Shown one piece after another: positions 13,159-24,382 of a DNA stretch of 26,376 nucleotides. Below the pieces are notes generated by a model, which made no database searches, had not been told where the DNA came from, and was given only the letters and a program-made list of their open reading frames with translations. Both the position numbers and the translations under genes were made by a program. This DNA is from a virus: the IMG/VR virus record IMGVR_UViG_3300009159_000269, positions 1 through 26,376 of that record; one strand, given 5' to 3'. Each line of letters opens with the position of its first letter. The stretch's first letter is position 1.

Positions 13159-13581
13159 TTAACTTACTTCTGTACGTCCATTACCCAAATCACGTGTTTT
13201 AACTTCTCTCAAGTCCCTGTTAGTAGGATCAGCTTGTTGTTGTTCATACATTTCCAAAACAACATTGCGACATACTTGGTGGAACCATCGGTCAACGATA
13301 TCACTATCTTTGTCATCCTTACTCATCATGTAACCAGACTTAACCAACCGTGCTACAAAAATTTCATTCCAGTCTAGTTCAAATGCACCACTAGTGATAT
13401 CATTAGGATCAATATCTAAACTTAAAATATTAACATACGGTTCACCTGCCTTTGTTGCTTTGTCTTTAGCATTTACATCTACCGTAGGTTTCTTTTCTTT
13501 AGGCTTGCGTGGTTTCTTTTCCTTAACAGGCTCTACGACTGTTTCTACCGGCTTCTTTTTAAATCTATCAAATAATCCCAT
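13159..13581 (-). CDS. Conserved-looking phage protein, 140 aa
   Basis: I start it at MGLFDRFKKKPVETVVEPVK (13581), after GAAAGAAA; the longer frame runs into uvdE. The N-terminal third is Lys/Pro-rich and probably disordered. The rest is folded: VNILSLDIDPNDITSGAFEL, DWNEIFVARLVKSGYMMSKD, RWFHQVCRNVVLEMYEQQ and TRDLGNGRTEVS. I have the impression it is widespread in T4-like phages, with unknown function. It overlaps the UvdE gene by 14 nt. Confidence 0.8.
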   Translation of the reverse strand: MGLFDRFKKKPVETVVEPVKEKKPRKPKEKKPTVDVNAKDKATKAGEPYVNILSLDIDPNDITSGAFELDWNEIFVARLVKSGYMMSKDDKDSDIVDRWFHQVCRNVVLEMYEQQQADPTNRDLREVKTRDLGNGRTEVS

Positions 13582-14587
13582 TTTCTTTCGCTCTTTCGTA
13601 TAGTTTGTGACTAGCAAGATTCTTAGCCTTGCTCTCACACATTATGTCAAAATTATCAAGGAATGTCAATGCCCAATCATTAACAGCATCATTCCAGTAA
13701 TAATCACTATGGGCACGTAATTTCTGTTTACTATGTCCAGATTCGATCAACGCACCATGATCGGGTGCGACAAGTCGGTCATGTGCTCCAAGTACATCTT
13801 CCCTACTGACGGAATAATGTAAAGTAGGACGGACACCCCGCCAACTATCAATAACGCTTTTAATCCTGTCCGAATCGGGGCTAATATATTCGCCCTCTCT
13901 AATCCAATTGTGATGAATGTCAAGCACAGTTGGGACAATATCAGATAGTGAAAGGCAGTCCATGAGTCCATGTGTATATTCCTCGTTTTCTAATGTAAGT
14001 GTGTTTCGTGCCTCAGGTGATAATCTACCGTAAACATCTCTGATACCCTGAGGACCTTTTCTACCAGAAATGTGTACATTACATTTGAAGTCTTGAAATT
14101 TCTTGCCATAACCCATCCAACGAATCATATCAGCATGATATTCAAATTCTGTAATACTATTATTTACCACCTCATCACGGTCACTTGCTAAAACTACAAA
14201 TTGGTCAGGATGAAAACTAAGACGAACATTATTAGCACGTGCAGTTTCGCCTAATGGAGCAAACCACTTAGCAAGTAAATCCTGTGTATTCTGTGATTTC
14301 CAAAAGTAGTGATAATCTTTGTGTGTGTAAAAACTTAACATGTCACTAGTTAACCGCAACATACGCAATGATTCAGGAAGATCAGATACTTTTTTGATTA
14401 GGTTATGAGTATTAGTAATATTTTGTTTGGCAACATTAATAATCTTTTCTTCTACAATAGTCTGACTATTGCGTTTAGCCCATGCCATAGTGGTACCGCC
14501 AGTATTGAGTCCCTCACTACTGACGATTTCACCTTTTTTGTTAATTTCTGCCCACTTGCAAGCAAAGCCAATTCGTTTAGTTGTCAT
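13568..14587 (-). CDS. uvdE: UV damage endonuclease (UvdE/UvsE)
   Basis: The 339-aa protein matches the UVDE TIM-barrel family: IGFACKWAEIN at the N-terminus, VRLSFHPDQFVVLAS (121-135), NVHISGRKG (170-178), TLENEE (198-203) and VLDIHHNW (221-228), with HYS at 257-259. These supply the metal-binding His, Glu and Asp residues. The enzyme nicks DNA 5' to pyrimidine dimers and other lesions. All expected motif residues are present. It overlaps the glycosyltransferase gene by 4 nt. A repair role during infection of sunlit waters is plausible but is inference. Confidence 0.93.
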   Translation of the reverse strand: MTTKRIGFACKWAEINKKGEIVSSEGLNTGGTTMAWAKRNSQTIVEEKIINVAKQNITNTHNLIKKVSDLPESLRMLRLTSDMLSFYTHKDYHYFWKSQNTQDLLAKWFAPLGETARANNVRLSFHPDQFVVLASDRDEVVNNSITEFEYHADMIRWMGYGKKFQDFKCNVHISGRKGPQGIRDVYGRLSPEARNTLTLENEEYTHGLMDCLSLSDIVPTVLDIHHNWIREGEYISPDSDRIKSVIDSWRGVRPTLHYSVSREDVLGAHDRLVAPDHGALIESGHSKQKLRAHSDYYWNDAVNDWALTFLDNFDIMCESKAKNLASHKLYERAKENGII

Positions 14588-16632: not shown

Positions 16633-16868
16633 ACTGTGCCTCTAATTTTGGCAATTAAAAATTCATTTTTATCGTAGTAACGATATTCAAATTCAGAATT
16701 ACCAGGACCAGTCCACATTGCAGTTTGTTTGTATGCATATTCTAACCAAAGTGTTTTACCAGTTATCGCACATCTTTTGGGCCAGATAATAAATTTTAAT
16801 TTTGTGCCTATGACATGGGATAAAAATCCATCAAGAAAGTATAGATTTTGTATATCTACCTGTTTCAT
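16629..16868 (-). CDS. Hypothetical protein, 79 aa
   Basis: The start at 16868 shares one nucleotide with the queE stop (TAATG) and has GGGGGAC in front. The middle reads FIIWPKRCAITGKTLWLEYA, then TGPGNSEFEYRYYDKNEFLI. The pattern resembles a small conserved phage family of unknown function. It is coupled to queE, so a link to deazaguanine metabolism is possible but unsupported. Confidence 0.72.
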   Translation of the reverse strand: MKQVDIQNLYFLDGFLSHVIGTKLKFIIWPKRCAITGKTLWLEYAYKQTAMWTGPGNSEFEYRYYDKNEFLIAKIRGTV

Positions 16869-17716
16869 TAAGTCCCCCATTCGTTTTTGAACAGTGGGAC
16901 TTGGAGTCTGTCACTATATCGCCATCCTTTTTGCATTGCGAGTTCCGCCACATTTCTATTATTAAGAGAGTACACCCGTTCAACACCCCCGCAAGGCATA
17001 AGATACACAGGACCTTTAAAACCCTTTTTACGATATTCATTTACTGCTTGCTCCGCTTCTTCTGCATCTTCTTTAGTTGCTACTACAAACTTCAAATAAG
17101 TAAATCCAGTATTATAATATTGCACAACAACATCAGGACAAATAGCATCTTCCCAATTTTCACCACTGATACTTAGTTTAGGACTTACACTGAAAGTCAG
17201 ACAATGTAAGAAACGATGTTTCTTCCATTCGTGCAGAAAGCTAACTAGTTCAGATTCTAATAACTGTGTACCATTAGTTTCAAATGTTATTTCTTGCAAT
17301 CCACGCATATTGTCATGTGACAACAAGTCTATGTAAGCACGTTGCCAGCCTAATAGCGGCTCACCGCCCGTAATAACCAAATGCTCATCTTTCCAACGAC
17401 CATGAGGAAGTAAATTGGTAATAGTATCAACAATAGTATTGGTGTCGAGAACAGGACTGAGATGTTTGAAGCGTGGATCCCAACTCGCATAGCTATCACA
17501 TCCAGTAGATACAAGTGGTAGTGATTTATAAGATTTAAAACTCTCTGCATTTTCTGCAATAATATTTCGTTCAACACTTTTTTCTCCTTTAGGCATTCCA
17601 AAGCCATCACATTTAAAGTTACAACCAAACGTGCGTAAGAACACGCTTGGCACACCCATGTAACGACCTTCACCTTGTATACTGTAGAACAGTTCTGATA
17701 TTTTAAGTTTGCTCAT
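16868..17716 (-). CDS. queE: QueE-like radical SAM enzyme (7-carboxy-7-deazaguanine synthase), divergent
   Basis: The 282-aa protein has SIQGEGRYMGVPSVFLRTFG at its start, ITGGEPLLGWQ (radical SAM GGEP motif), EITFETNGT, and an end with PVYLMPCGG, typical of QueE, which converts 6-carboxy-tetrahydropterin to CDG. The cluster motif is unusual. Cys32 and Cys36 fit CxxxC, but the usual third Cys two residues on is absent. The aligned CDSYASWDP block occurs with Cys73, giving CX3CX36C with a 34-residue insertion. It overlaps the 79-aa gene by one nucleotide. FolE and QueD lie upstream in the same transcription direction. Length is above typical bacterial QueE (about 210-250 aa). Confidence 0.88.
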   Translation of the reverse strand: MSKLKISELFYSIQGEGRYMGVPSVFLRTFGCNFKCDGFGMPKGEKSVERNIIAENAESFKSYKSLPLVSTGCDSYASWDPRFKHLSPVLDTNTIVDTITNLLPHGRWKDEHLVITGGEPLLGWQRAYIDLLSHDNMRGLQEITFETNGTQLLESELVSFLHEWKKHRFLHCLTFSVSPKLSISGENWEDAICPDVVVQYYNTGFTYLKFVVATKEDAEEAEQAVNEYRKKGFKGPVYLMPCGGVERVYSLNNRNVAELAMQKGWRYSDRLQVPLFKNEWGT

Positions 17717-18073: not shown

Positions 18074-18172
18074 TCAACACCTATGTTTTGAATACCATAG
18101 GCCTAGTATTCGTATACGTGAAAAGCGACCAAAACAGTTTACGCAATAAAGTCTTGAAGTAGGCCATTTCAT
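18074..18172 (-). CDS. 32-aa Cys-containing basic peptide
   Basis: The peptide begins MKWPTSRLYCVNCFGRFS and ends KHRC. The CVNC pair and a terminal HRC (His and Cys) could bind one zinc ion. Its ATG overlaps the queD stop as ATGA, and it ends 2 nt before the next ATG. It is strongly basic. Too short for family assignment; coupling and motif support it. Confidence 0.6.
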   Translation of the reverse strand: MKWPTSRLYCVNCFGRFSRIRILGLWYSKHRC

Positions 18173-18711
18173 ACAAACAAGTCCTCATTCCATTCACGAT
18201 GACCTTCACGGAATGCCATGTTAGCTTGTGTTTCACGTACTTCAACACGATAGCACCATAGACGTTCTGCTTCACCGTTACCCCACATATCTGGAATATA
18301 CACTCCATTGACATATTTGTAAAGCATATCGGCTAAACTCTCACAACCGATTCTTGGTAAAATGGTTAGTTTAGCCAATTTCTTTTCTTGTAGCATTTTG
18401 AATGTTTCAAGTTCCGGGTCATCTTGTGCTACTAACAATGTGTGGTCAAATTGATCTTCTAATATCTTCTTCAGTTCTTTTAATCCACCATAGTCAGCCG
18501 CCCAGTTACGAACATCTAAATCATCTGTTCCGAAATAGAATCGCATACTGAAACTATATCCATGAATCATATTACAATGACTGTCTGCACGCCACTGACG
18601 ATATGCACATGGAAATGCATCGTGATATTCTTTGGTACTTGTGAATTTATATGAAATACTCGGTTGATTTTGCAACTTGTGTTTTCTTACTGTATCTTCT
18701 ATTAATGACAT
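18169..18711 (-). CDS. queD: QueD-like 6-carboxy-tetrahydropterin synthase, altered metal site
   Basis: The 180-aa protein has the T-fold pattern of PTPS/QueD: FPCAYRQWRADSHCNMIHGY (33-52), FDHTLLVAQDD (88-98, the Asp-His pair), GCESLADMLY (122-131, substrate-binding Glu124) and VEVRETQANMAF (Glu160). The expected first zinc His is Tyr37 and HGH is HGY (50-52), so only His50 of the usual three remains; Cys46 is kept. It would act after FolE to make the QueE substrate. Position between folE and queE supports the call. A hairpin covers its ribosome-binding site and it overlaps the 24-aa mini-ORF by one nucleotide. Confidence 0.85.
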   Translation of the reverse strand: MSLIEDTVRKHKLQNQPSISYKFTSTKEYHDAFPCAYRQWRADSHCNMIHGYSFSMRFYFGTDDLDVRNWAADYGGLKELKKILEDQFDHTLLVAQDDPELETFKMLQEKKLAKLTILPRIGCESLADMLYKYVNGVYIPDMWGNGEAERLWCYRVEVRETQANMAFREGHREWNEDLFV

Positions 18712-19684: not shown

Positions 19685-19809
19685 TCTTTGCCCTTAATTC
19701 TACGCCATATAACATCAAATGTATTTGGATTCAACATAACTTCCCAACCTTTAGGAATTACTTCAGGAAAGAAATGCATCTTACCGTTGCTATGTTTATA
19801 CCATTTCAT
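19681..19809 (-). CDS. 42-aa small protein
   Basis: The ATG overlaps the folE stop as ATGA and the stop overlaps the next start the same way. The sequence has a basic start (MKWYKHSNGKMHFF) and a middle with PEVIPKGWEVMLNPNTFDVI. It is hydrophilic to aromatic. The double coupling is good evidence. No function assigned. Confidence 0.65.
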   Translation of the reverse strand: MKWYKHSNGKMHFFPEVIPKGWEVMLNPNTFDVIWRRIKGKE

Positions 19810-20480
19810 TTCTGTCTAGCGATTTGATAGAACTCTGCACGTGCCGCTGGATCAGACTTAAATCCACCGCCCAATCTACTTGTTACAGTAGAACTACCGG
19901 TATCTTCTACACCGCGGGACTTAACACAATAGTGTTGTGCGTCAATCATTACCGCAACATCTTCAGTCTCCAGTATAAATTGGAGAGTGTGGAAGATTTG
20001 TTCTGTAAGTCGCTCTTGGATTTGAGGGCGTTTGCTGAAATATTCAACAATACGATTAATTTTTGATAATCCGAGGACTCTTTGTTTCGGAACATAAGCC
20101 ACTGTAGCCAGCCCATCAATAACAACAAAGTGATGTTCGCAATTACTTTGGACGTTAACGTTGCGTTCAACGACCATTTCATTGTAATGCATCTTGTTAT
20201 CGACAGTCGTACACTTTGGAAATGCTTCATAATCTAAGCCCCAGAAAATTTCATTTACATACATTTTAGCAACACGTTTTGGTGTTTCTATTAAACTATC
20301 ATCAGCTAAGTCTAAACCTAGAACCTGCATAATATGGCTGAAACTCTTTTCAATCTCAGCAATTTTATCTTTGCGGTCTAATGCTGTTTGAAACGTTGGC
20401 GTTTCAACACCCATTTTAACTAAGTGTTCATGTACTTTTAATCCTAATTCAGGATCTGTTTTTGTCTTGTTGTAACTCAT
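19806..20480 (-). CDS. folE: GTP cyclohydrolase I (FolE)
   Basis: The 224-aa protein shows the complete FolE signature: SNCEHHFVVIDG (Cys114, His117), GLSKINRIVEYFSKRPQIQE (137-156), QHYCVKSRGV (His183, Cys185) and DTGSSTVTSRLGG. The Cys/His residues bind the catalytic zinc. It converts GTP to dihydroneopterin triphosphate, the first step of both folate and 7-deazaguanine synthesis. With queD and queE nearby, the deazaguanine role is favoured. A strong GGAGGG site precedes it, and a 24-aa mini-ORF ends over its start. Confidence 0.95.
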   Translation of the reverse strand: MSYNKTKTDPELGLKVHEHLVKMGVETPTFQTALDRKDKIAEIEKSFSHIMQVLGLDLADDSLIETPKRVAKMYVNEIFWGLDYEAFPKCTTVDNKMHYNEMVVERNVNVQSNCEHHFVVIDGLATVAYVPKQRVLGLSKINRIVEYFSKRPQIQERLTEQIFHTLQFILETEDVAVMIDAQHYCVKSRGVEDTGSSTVTSRLGGGFKSDPAARAEFYQIARQK

Positions 20481-20551: not shown

Positions 20552-21531
20552 TCGATAGTATAATCTATTTTTTTCATCCAGTCAATAGTAGTTTTAACTA
20601 TTGTAGTTAAATCACTGTATTGAGGTACCCAATCTGAATTTTTCATAAACTTATTTGGGTTAGCAATTAGCAAGGCCGGATCACCCTCTCGTCTAGGACC
20701 AAAATTGTAAGGTACCTTTACTCCAGATATTTTCTCAACTTCTTTAATAATTTCTAAATTACTGTATCCCTTACCAGTACCCAAATTGAAGGGCCTATAT
20801 GGCTTTTCTTGTGTAGATAACATTTCTACTGATTTAACATGTGCATTTGCAATATCGGTTACGTGCAAATAATCACGCACACATGTACCGTCCTCAGTTT
20901 CAAAATCATCACCGTTAATAACTAATCGTTGTTTGGTAATTAAACTAGATACTACTCTGGGTACTAGATGAGTATCGTCTTTGGTATTTCCTAATTCATT
21001 ATCAGGATCACAACCACATGCATTAAAGTATCTTAGCGCAATAGCTTTAAATCCATGTGCATCGCAATGATCCTTTATAATTTGTTCGCCCATTAATTTA
21101 CTACGACCGTAAGGGCTGATTGGCTCTTTTCTATCTTTTTCTTTCCAGGGTTTATTATATTCGTCACTGCCATAAATTGCCGCACTACTACTAAAAACAA
21201 TACCACCTTTCCACTTAGCGTCAGCTAATTGTTGTAGCATTGAATTAGTTTTTGCAACATTGTTATCATAGTATAATCCGGGATTACTCATACTAGGACC
21301 AACTAAACTTGTTGCACCTAAATGAATGATAGCTTCTGCTTGTTTGTTTGTAGCACAGAAACTTGCCATTACTTCAAAATCGTCTTTGATTAACTCATCA
21401 ATATATGTTGTTGCCCCGGGTACAAATACATTTCTATCTATACCTATGACATAATAGCCGGCCTTTTTAAAGGCTTTACAAGTATGACTACCTATAAAAC
21501 CCAATGCACCTGTAATAATAACTGTTTTCAT
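20548..21531 (-). CDS. galE: NAD-dependent sugar-nucleotide epimerase, GalE type
   Basis: This 327-aa extended SDR has TGALGFIGSH (Rossmann motif, 7-16), IIHLGATSLVGPS, VFSSSAAIYG (112-121), catalytic Y141-GRS-K145, and CVRDYLHVTDIANAH, all typical of UDP-glucose/galactose 4-epimerases. It would interconvert UDP-hexoses, giving donors for the glycosyltransferases in the window. Its length is normal. The start overlaps the oxygenase gene by 4 nt. Closely related 4-epimerases acting on N-acetyl sugars cannot be excluded. Confidence 0.92.
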   Translation of the reverse strand: MKTVIITGALGFIGSHTCKAFKKAGYYVIGIDRNVFVPGATTYIDELIKDDFEVMASFCATNKQAEAIIHLGATSLVGPSMSNPGLYYDNNVAKTNSMLQQLADAKWKGGIVFSSSAAIYGSDEYNKPWKEKDRKEPISPYGRSKLMGEQIIKDHCDAHGFKAIALRYFNACGCDPDNELGNTKDDTHLVPRVVSSLITKQRLVINGDDFETEDGTCVRDYLHVTDIANAHVKSVEMLSTQEKPYRPFNLGTGKGYSNLEIIKEVEKISGVKVPYNFGPRREGDPALLIANPNKFMKNSDWVPQYSDLTTIVKTTIDWMKKIDYTIE

Positions 21532-22082
21532 TCAAACCTCGTAGATATAGCAATAGATAATCTTAAGTCATTGCTTAAGTTGTGTTCAACCGAGTGTATC
21601 ACATATCCCGGAAATATTAGTAACATTCCGGGTACCGGAGTAATTTTATGATAAGGTAAGATAATAGAGTGTCTATGTGATTTCCATGTAACATCAGTTC
21701 TTGCTTGTGGGTCTTGCCATAAGATAGAACCTCTAGGATCATGTAATAATATATCTCCTGACTGAGCAGGAACCAGTATGTAATATACTAATGCAAGCAT
21801 ACAATCAAGGTGATGATGCGGACTATTATTATTTCCGGGCATCATGGGATTTTGTCTACCTGTTACAGTAAAACTTTCTGATAGACCACAGTCTTTAGCA
21901 ATATCACTAATTATAGGAAGTACTTGTTTTTTTAATGACTGTACTGCATCATTGTTAATGTCAAAATAATCCTGTCCCTGTTTATATTGCCGAGACGCTG
22001 ATAGAAGGTTATCATTTAAAATTTGATAATCGTCTAACATTGTACTCCACAGTGGGGTAGAGAAAAGATTTATTTTGTTCAT
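21528..22082 (-). CDS. 2OG-Fe(II) oxygenase-like protein
   Basis: The 184-aa protein has NLFSTPLWSTMLDD at its start and the iron-binding facial triad: HHHLD (His91, Asp93) and VIHSVEHN (His163), with RLSIAIS (Arg174) for 2-oxoglutarate. The fold is similar to phage 2OG oxygenases of the T4-like group. It hydroxylates an unknown substrate. Lying between a histone-like gene and galE in a region with DNA-modification genes, it might act on a base, sugar or protein; none is proven. It shares a base with the histone-like gene and 4 nt with galE. Confidence 0.82.
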   Translation of the reverse strand: MNKINLFSTPLWSTMLDDYQILNDNLLSASRQYKQGQDYFDINNDAVQSLKKQVLPIISDIAKDCGLSESFTVTGRQNPMMPGNNNSPHHHLDCMLALVYYILVPAQSGDILLHDPRGSILWQDPQARTDVTWKSHRHSIILPYHKITPVPGMLLIFPGYVIHSVEHNLSNDLRLSIAISTRFE

Positions 22083-22447: not shown

Positions 22448-23638
22448 TTAGTATTTGCTTTCTCTAGTGTGTTTGCGATAATCTGTATCCATACGCAACC
22501 ATTTTAAACCCTTACCTAATGGCTCCTCAATGATATCACAAATTCTATCAACTGTTTTATCAGTCCAGTCACTAATATTTCCTTGTTTAGTGTGCGGTTG
22601 ATGTAACATATTGTATAATTTAATAGCCGCATCTTCAACACTCCAGGGTAAATACATTCTGCTTGCATCATTGCTTAGTGTTTCTGGGAAACTTCTATAA
22701 GCAGGATAGCAAACATTACATCCTAGTGCATCTGCTTCACTGATTGTATTTGATACCCAATCTTGTAATGCACAATTGAATAGAATACGACTATCATTTA
22801 GTATATTGTAGTAGGCGTTTTTATCTAGGTCTTCATAGATTTTAAGACTACCTTCACTACGCATCTTGCGTGTGCGTTCCATGTAACTACTATTGTTACT
22901 ACGTAGTGGTGCGCCACTTAATACTGCAAACTCTGCACTTCTATTACCGTATCTATTATTGAATTCTTCAATAACATCCATGAAGAAATCAGGTTGCTTT
23001 TCTTGATCCCAACGTGCGGTAAATACAATACGAGGTGTACGTTCATTAAATGGTTTAATTTCGGTAACACGTTCACGTACTTCATCTTTACCAAATGCAA
23101 GACCTGATATATTATAAATCGGGGCTTCCCAGCCTGCAATTTTCATATGCATTACCATTTCTTCGCTTGATGCAAGAACACCATCTACAAATGAGTCAAC
23201 CATTTTTTCATAGTGACCCATAAACTTAGACATGCCCCATACATGAACGAAATCATCAGGATCAATGGATTGAGCAAGACAGCGAACATAAATGCGAGGA
23301 CGATTAACACTGTCGATTTGATTAAGTATATAAGGAAGGCTCTCGATACCGGGTTGAAACATGTCCTCAAAGTAGATAACATCTTCATTGCTTAGTTCCC
23401 CTGCTTTCATCATCTTAATCAAATTCATTAGTTGTGACATACCAAAGTATGTACGACCATGTGCATCTAATACTTGACCAGTAACAATTGCTTGGTCATT
23501 ACTTAATGTTTCACCCGGTACAATAACATAATTAATATCACGGCGTTTAAATACACGCTCGTTCCACTCCGTTAATTGTAATGTATAACGTGCTTTATAT
23601 GGCTCAAGGCCCATGTAATAAAGTTTACGCATGGTCAT
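22448..23638 (-). CDS. Phage glycosyltransferase, GT-B type
   Basis: The 396-aa protein starts MTMRKLYYMGLEPYKARYTL and contains VIVPGETLSNDQAIVTGQVL, FEDMFQPGIESL, RIVFTARWDQEKQPDFFMDV and the donor-site region DWVSNTISEADALGCNVCYP. The last two fit the C-terminal half of a GT-B enzyme. It resembles glycosyltransferases of other large environmental phages by recollection. Its ATG overlaps the stop of the upstream gene (ATGA). Target could be DNA or a host or virion glycan; the sequence does not decide. Confidence 0.8.
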   Translation of the reverse strand: MTMRKLYYMGLEPYKARYTLQLTEWNERVFKRRDINYVIVPGETLSNDQAIVTGQVLDAHGRTYFGMSQLMNLIKMMKAGELSNEDVIYFEDMFQPGIESLPYILNQIDSVNRPRIYVRCLAQSIDPDDFVHVWGMSKFMGHYEKMVDSFVDGVLASSEEMVMHMKIAGWEAPIYNISGLAFGKDEVRERVTEIKPFNERTPRIVFTARWDQEKQPDFFMDVIEEFNNRYGNRSAEFAVLSGAPLRSNNSSYMERTRKMRSEGSLKIYEDLDKNAYYNILNDSRILFNCALQDWVSNTISEADALGCNVCYPAYRSFPETLSNDASRMYLPWSVEDAAIKLYNMLHQPHTKQGNISDWTDKTVDRICDIIEEPLGKGLKWLRMDTDYRKHTRESKY

Positions 23639-23844
23639 ATTCTACGTGCATCCTCAGCCCAACTGTCTTTAGGCCATTTACCTGAAAGTTGTTTTTGATG
23701 TTGACGATATACGTATGAACGCATGTCGTATAATGTTGTCTCATCATACTTATATCCAAAGTCTACACAAAACTCTTTGTATTTTTCTAGGTCTTCAAAG
23801 AGTTGATGAACTTTAGGATTAGGTTGATAATTATGTTTTGCCAT
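23635..23844 (-). CDS. Conserved-looking small phage protein, 69 aa
   Basis: The start at 23844 is set by AAAGGAAAT upstream. The body reads FEDLEKYKEFCVDFGYKYDE then LYDMRSYVYRQHQKQLSGK and ends DSWAEDARRI. The FCVDFGYKYDE / RSYVYRQ pattern looks familiar from T4-like phages, where it has no known function. Helical, cytosolic. It couples to the glycosyltransferase through ATGA. Confidence 0.75.
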   Translation of the reverse strand: MAKHNYQPNPKVHQLFEDLEKYKEFCVDFGYKYDETTLYDMRSYVYRQHQKQLSGKWPKDSWAEDARRI

Positions 23845-23854
23845 TATATTTCCT

Positions 23855-24382
23855 TTAAATAGCGATTGTAAGATGTGGTTTAGTTGTATTATAGTGAATT
23901 GAGCATCCGTTCTCTGCATCTTCTGATACATCAATACGAACCTCCCTGTCTGGATAACGTTCAGCAATAACTTCGTAAAGGTCATCACTAATCATTTCAC
24001 AGCTTTTATGATTCAATTCAAGTACGCCTTGATACAGTTTCTCAAGCCAACGCTTGAATTGAATAAATTCGATATCCCTGTCATTATGAAAGACTTGAAT
24101 GCCGATACAAAAGTGAAAAATATGACGATGCGGGCTTCCTAAGAAACTTACATCATATTCATCACCAGTTGCTAGTTTAGGGTCATGTCCGGCTTGAGGA
24201 TAGCAATGAATGCCCTCACGTTGAAACGTAACCCATATATATCGTTTTGCTTCTTGCTTGATGCGTTGACGTTTTTCAGCCAATGCCATTTGTCGTTGGT
24301 CATCCATTTGAGGTATATCTCCTGTTGTGTATTCTTCAATAGTGTCATTATTGATTGATGAAATCAAACCGTTTTTATTCAT
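23855..24382 (-). CDS. T-fold/QueD-like orphan next to dpdA
   Basis: I do not recognise a named family in this 175-aa protein, but its order of elements resembles a QueD/T-fold enzyme: SFLGSPHRHIFHFCIGIQVF (79-98, an HxHxxH cluster before a strand), DRDIEFIQFKRWLEKLYQG (101-119, like the DFxxLK helix), LNHKSCEMISDDLYEVIAER (123-142, like the LDH...ptaEnlA segment) and RIDVSEDAENG (149-159, like the vxExxxxGa strand). The N-terminal 45 residues are charged and helical. It lies just downstream of dpdA, so a role in base modification is suggested. Confidence 0.72.
   Translation of the reverse strand: MNKNGLISSINNDTIEEYTTGDIPQMDDQRQMALAEKRQRIKQEAKRYIWVTFQREGIHCYPQAGHDPKLATGDEYDVSFLGSPHRHIFHFCIGIQVFHNDRDIEFIQFKRWLEKLYQGVLELNHKSCEMISDDLYEVIAERYPDREVRIDVSEDAENGCSIHYNTTKPHLTIAI

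Follow-up and report, generated by a model that had tools for sequence, protein, structure and literature searches.

Work by Cui et al. in 2023 is said to have found 7-deazaguanine in phage DNA and to have predicted DpdL, a decarboxylase of 7-carboxy-7-deazaguanine (CDG); the pathway of that prediction reportedly runs without QueC and ends at 7-deazaguanine together with DpdA. QueF and the QueF-like proteins are T-fold enzymes that work on 7-deazaguanines and are not zinc enzymes, and to our knowledge no T-fold decarboxylase has been described. QueC, which in other phages performs the step after CDG, is a PP-loop ATPase of a fold unrelated to the T-fold. In tubercidin synthesis the UbiD-family protein TubF is thought to decarboxylate a CDG derivative, acting on the ribotide (PMC6112128). 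TubF belongs to the prFMN type of that family and is likewise without relation to the T-fold.

In this work we analyzed a viral DNA fragment of 26,376 nt (the window), which encodes at 23855-24382 a predicted T-fold protein, named TF in the following. Its gene structure, predicted fold, distribution and genomic partners are compared below with the enzymes just mentioned.

Gene organization of the locus

The open reading frame of TF comprises 175 aa on the minus strand and contains all four motifs (HRHIFHF, DIEFIQFKRW, SCEMISDDL, and VSEDAENG) named in a preliminary description of the locus, and the plus strand of the same stretch is closed by many stops. It starts 7 nt past the DpdA ORF on the same strand (Table 1). 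An in-frame ATG at 24307 has an AGGAG (24323-24319) 11 nt ahead of it, and the majority of relatives begin at the equivalent position; the start is therefore probably at 24307 and the protein probably 150 aa long. Codon-position differences to the relative in locus L007 amount to 29/18/63 at the first, second and third position, which at the sequence level show selection acting on the protein. As the third position differs most and intact relatives are present in hundreds of contigs, the ORF is a genuine gene and not a chance reading frame.

Table 1. Features of the window around TF, with coordinates and the basis of each assignment.
Feature	Position	Strand	Basis
QueE, 7-carboxy-7-deazaguanine synthase	16868..17716	-	phrog_2076, E 3e-52
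QueD, 6-carboxytetrahydropterin synthase-like	18169..18711	-	PF01242, E 3e-16; phrog_2389, E 1e-37
FolE, GTP cyclohydrolase I	19806..20480	-	NF006824, E 3e-97
Glycosyltransferase (GT), GT4-like family	22448..23638	-	weak Pfam matches of relatives; invariant E12, R17-Y18-T19
Conserved small protein of 69 aa between TF and GT	23635..23844	-	adjoins TF in 42/42 full-flank IMG/VR loci
TF, predicted T-fold protein, probably 150 aa, ORF open to 24382	23855..24307	-	AlphaFold2 T-fold, QueD (4ntk) best; phrog_17812, E 1e-30; AGGAG before ATG
DpdA, TGT-like DNA-guanine transglycosylase, 493 aa	24390..25871	-	AlphaFold2 model against TGTs; invariant D103, D301

The 493-aa neighbor of TF has no Pfam match and none in the PDB by sequence search. 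Its AlphaFold2 model (pLDDT 89.5) matches tRNA-guanine transglycosylases (TGTs) at Z 18.6-19.9 and both TGT active-site Asp residues, D103 in GDSGGFQ and D301 in FDCASP, are invariant; going by the model and these residues, the name DpdA stands. No family match was obtained for the 69-aa protein. That the genome already has a QueD, as the preliminary description had it, is correct, and the window also encodes its own FolE and QueE. QueC was not seen within the 26-kb window, which is a fragment of the viral genome, and the relatives of the locus suggest that the phage lacks it. The window QueD carries Tyr at two of the zinc-His positions (AYRQW..SHC..HGY) and keeps the Cys and the Asp-His; because phage immuto has a similar type, this altered metal site marks, judging by sequence, a QueD subtype that is more widespread among phages. 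Also encoded in this gene run (13568-14587 and 21528-22082) are a UvdE-type UV endonuclease and a 2OG-Fe(II) oxygenase; no counterpart of the latter was found in related loci.

Predicted fold and active site of TF

At E ≤ 1 TF matched no Pfam or NCBIfam family, including those of QueD (PF01242 and TIGR03367), QueF and QueF-like proteins (PF14489), and FolE (PF01227). In PHROGs it falls into phrog_17812, which is annotated there as of unknown function, and a sequence search of the PDB returned chance matches only (bacterioferritin, E 0.2 and above). The AlphaFold2 model, built from 62 alignment rows (pLDDT 89.6), has the order strand-strand-helix-helix-strand-strand and was compared with known structures by Foldseek and VIA-align. 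Escherichia coli QueD (4ntk) came out on top (E 2e-4; Z 12.2, rmsd 2.2 over 109 residues, TF residues 44-165), followed by 6-PTPS (Z 11.2), QueF-like (9.2), and DHNA (about 9), with uricase (8.3), GTP cyclohydrolase (8.2), and QueF (7.7) lower down. The preliminary description had proposed a T-fold like that of QueD and PTPS and had asked for a structural comparison with QueD, QueF and FolE; the model bears the proposal out, and there is very high confidence in the prediction that TF is a T-fold of the PTPS/QueD type. QueF and QueF-like proteins resemble TF in being T-fold enzymes of the substrate class predicted for TF, and differ in their lower structural scores relative to QueD and in a Pfam family to which TF has no match.

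Comparison of the TF profile with phage and canonical QueD sets gave E-values of 1e-4 and 6e-5, each for a single comparison, and pairs H85, H87, E129, and E154 of TF with the HGH region of QueD and its two Glu residues. This match is modest (probability 53-66%) and leaves the first strand outside the alignment, so that the zinc-ligand role of H59 is deduced from the fold. Invariant in all 62 relatives are H59, H85, H87, H99, R102, E105, S127-C128-E129, E154, and D155. By model and alignment TF shares with QueD the topology, the three His residues at the zinc-ligand positions (H59/H85/H87, of which H85 and H87 are placed by profile alignment and H59 by fold order; 62/62), a Glu at the position of the pterin/purine anchor, and a second conserved Glu after the loop. 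Unlike QueD, in whose sets the catalytic Cys is invariant or near-invariant and the Asp-His (LDH) pair invariant, TF has Leu at the Cys position (residue 81, four residues before HGH) in 62/62 relatives and no DH, the loop being shortened; the E. coli QueD sequence in the alignment concerned (A6) is confirmed over its N-terminal part by the PDB alignment. The invariant H99, R102, E105, and C128 are TF's own. By alignment and model, TF is QueD-like in fold and predicted metal site, yet it is not a QueD.

Distribution of TF

A tblastn search found TF in 27 of 50,697 phage records, including Sinorhizobium phage Phosso, Rhizobium phage RHph_I1_18, eleven PA5oct-like Pseudomonas records, Acidovorax phage ACP17, Xanthomonas phage X1, Aeromonas phage Ahp1, Vibrio phages Bakedbeans and D479, Synechococcus phage BUCT-ZZ01, Cellulophaga phages phiST, phi19:2, and phi13:1, Chryseobacterium phage MA9V-3, and Faecalibacterium phage Roos. 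IMG/VR contributed at least about 600 matches, and genome contigs a further 15 loci, mostly metagenome-assembled. Among cultured P. aeruginosa phages TF is carried by PA5oct, Paride, MIJ3, and Callisto, and in the literature examined on them no report of DNA modification was found. The MA9V-3 protein has an N-terminal part that, by eye, resembles an HNH homing endonuclease, and the Bakedbeans protein one with a sub-threshold helix-turn-helix match only; neither fusion partner was informative on function. The Magnetospirillum loci look mobile, with an integrase and phage-like genes near TF. The element found there (L166-L170), whose integrase is 98% identical in several genomes and which is present in two copies in one of them, carries GT, TF, DpdA, and QueD, and in L167 and L168 a CoiA-nuclease-like gene lies just upstream.

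Linkage to DpdA and to the 7-deazaguanine pathway

Among the matches listed, 42 IMG/VR loci have at least 5 kb on each side of TF (full-flank loci); they are mutually related and do not represent 42 independent events. DpdA lies within 10 kb of TF in all 42 of them and within 3 kb in 41. TF is paired with several divergent DpdA types, namely that of the window, one related to nt-1 (ACP17, X1, and BUCT-ZZ01), that of phiST and MA9V-3, and a 9g-like one; in Phosso about 170 kb separate TF from dpdA. With DpdA near TF in every full-flank locus and other phage lineages carrying DpdA-like genes too, the co-occurrence that the preliminary description wished to see checked was found. Two Methanosarcinales/Methanoperedens clusters (L172, 2880-11686; L173, 3840-12585) contain TF with FolE, QueD, QueE, a methyltransferase, MacB/FtsX transporters, a terpene-cyclase-like protein of squalene-cyclase type, and an Ldi-like (linalool dehydratase-like) protein; the window type of DpdA is absent from the genome and no DpdA was seen nearby. 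These clusters are possibly a 7-deazapurine small-molecule pathway.

Eighteen TF-bearing records, comprising twelve phage records and six viral contigs, were screened over their full length for pathway genes. QueE was present in 17 of the 18 and a QueD match likewise in 17 (over the cut-off in 16). Full-length QueC was found in none (0/18), the only matches being short and weak PF06508 fragments, strongest in D479; partial matches of this kind in several viral contigs were rejected as QueC, being short and low-scoring. The identical search recovered full-length QueC in 9g, CAjan, and immuto, all three without TF, and in the phage records tested TF and QueC are mutually exclusive. QueC-type matches occur in 280 phage records, a part of which was checked for TF, and TF in only 27. 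The QueE proteins of immuto and phiST share 76% identity; immuto encodes QueC together with an annotated QueF and a formyltransferase but no TF, and phiST has TF without QueC. A genome content of FolE, QueD, QueE, and DpdA without QueC was thus found on the 18 records, with D479 and Roos as imperfect cases. D479 (L089/L093) encodes a 268-aa PP-loop protein with SGIDS and CGKCAKC motifs and a partial QueC match, which may be, from its sequence, a divergent QueC in a TF-bearing phage, and its QueD match is weak. Roos (L092, 9025-10893) carries TF, a DpdA-like protein, and a Vut_1 (YhhQ-type) transporter, a gene set that suggests the use of a salvaged precursor. As no QueD or QueE match was found in Roos, its TF has to rely on a substrate supplied by the host, which is perhaps not CDG. 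The host genomes of the archaeal and Magnetospirillum loci have a QueC of their own. Overall, the membership of TF in the 7-deazaguanine pathway is held with high confidence.

An associated glycosyltransferase

A new observation is the tight linkage of TF, in most lineages, to one glycosyltransferase family. GT lies within 3 kb of TF in 40 of the 42 full-flank loci, and the linkage recurs in Pseudomonas, Acidovorax, Xanthomonas, Synechococcus, and Sinorhizobium phages and in Magnetospirillum and Bacteroides loci, these five other phage lineages and two sets of loci being independent support for it. Relatives of the window GT match PF00534, PF13524, and PF13692 weakly, and the invariant residues, including the RYT motif, are taken from the family alignment (A5). 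With the Phosso GT as query the 50,697 phage records gave 20 matches, 16 of them TF-bearing and the other four partial and about 25% identical, so the family is nearly confined to TF-bearing phages. Epimerase and cytidylyltransferase genes are often found near TF and GT. Seven TF-bearing phages (phiST, RHph_I1_18, Bakedbeans, Ahp1, D479, MA9V-3, and Roos) have no member of this GT family, and GT would therefore be an add-on to the pathway.

Proposed function of TF

From the computed fold, the His triad and Glu, the lost QueD residues, the linkage to FolE, QueD, QueE, and DpdA, and the exclusion with QueC in the records searched, we infer zinc, substrate and reaction by way of alignment and context: TF is a likely, if far from certain, candidate for an enzyme that acts on free CDG, and its most probable reaction is decarboxylation to 7-deazaguanine. 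TF would take over CDG, the product of QueE, at the branch point where other phages use QueC. E154 would hold the guanine-like edge of CDG, the zinc bound by H59, H85, and H87 would polarize its 7-carboxylate, and H99, R102, E105, and C128 may help to protonate C7, with release of CO2 and formation of 7-deazaguanine, which DpdA would then exchange for guanine in phage DNA. A free base rather than DNA is the expected substrate because TF occurs with several DpdA types and in archaeal clusters without DpdA nearby, and decarboxylation would be the simplest sensible step without QueC because it yields 7-deazaguanine. The decarboxylation of a CDG derivative proposed for TubF would be a parallel. 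The function of TF would be that of the predicted DpdL; a linked GT is reportedly not part of the DpdL prediction. Several observations count against the proposal: the profile match to QueD is modest, and T-fold decarboxylases are not known; a conserved GT is not needed for plain 7-deazaguanine; Roos must draw its substrate from the host, and D479 a partial QueC-like protein and a weak QueD; and the archaeal and Magnetospirillum hosts own a QueC.

Other roles were weighed against the same data. The shared fold and zinc triad would also suit a second QueD, an isozyme, and this candidate was rejected as most improbable given the Leu at the catalytic Cys position in 62/62 relatives, the missing LDH loop, and the proper QueD match already present in 17 of the 18 records. 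That TF serves FolE, QueD, or QueE as a T-fold subunit, either non-catalytic or regulatory, is improbable too. Such a subunit could, for instance, complement the unusual phage QueD, and the idea draws on the contrast between a window QueD with Tyr at two zinc-His positions and a TF that keeps the triad, but immuto combines this QueD type with a lack of TF, the QueD that accompanies TF in the Magnetospirillum and archaeal loci is of the full-His type, and TF has invariant polar residues of its own, unlike a scaffold. A heteromeric active site shared by QueD and TF was dropped for the reason that immuto provides.

Of the alternatives offered in the preliminary description, a deazaguanine enzyme is the best supported, and base handling in partnership with DpdA is a less probable role since TF occurs with divergent DpdA types and in two archaeal FolE/QueD/QueE clusters without DpdA in reach. 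A base-handling or DNA-targeting protein bound to DpdA would explain why dpdA lies no more than 3 kb from TF in 41 of the 42 loci, yet the distance in Phosso speaks against it as well, and we regard this role as quite improbable. A tentative reading, unlikely but deserving more weight than these, is that TF and GT together make a glycosylated 7-deazaguanine, TF preparing CDG by decarboxylation or activation and GT attaching a sugar either to the base or to DNA that already carries the modification. The proximity of GT to TF in the 40 loci and in the further phage lineages, the 16 of 20 matches to the Phosso GT that lie in TF-bearing phages, and the frequent neighboring epimerase and cytidylyltransferase genes are in its favor, but the seven phages without GT indicate that TF itself does not need it, and GT could instead act on a glycan of the capsid or of the host surface. 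From the linkage of TF and GT it follows that part of the TF phages may carry glycosylated 7-deazaguanine; that DpdA, TF, and a dedicated GT form one cassette for a sugar-bearing 7-deazaguanine in phage DNA is conceivable, with the chances rather against it.

We know of no report of such a sugar-bearing class of hypermodified guanine, and if it exists many freshwater phages would harbor the cassette, as would cultured phages of Pseudomonas, Acidovorax, and Xanthomonas. Should TF be the proposed CDG decarboxylase, a family that Pfam and NCBIfam leave unannotated and that PHROGs lists as of unknown function would supply the enzyme for the missing step from QueE to 7-deazaguanine in phages without QueC, and decarboxylation would be added to the known capabilities of the T-fold.
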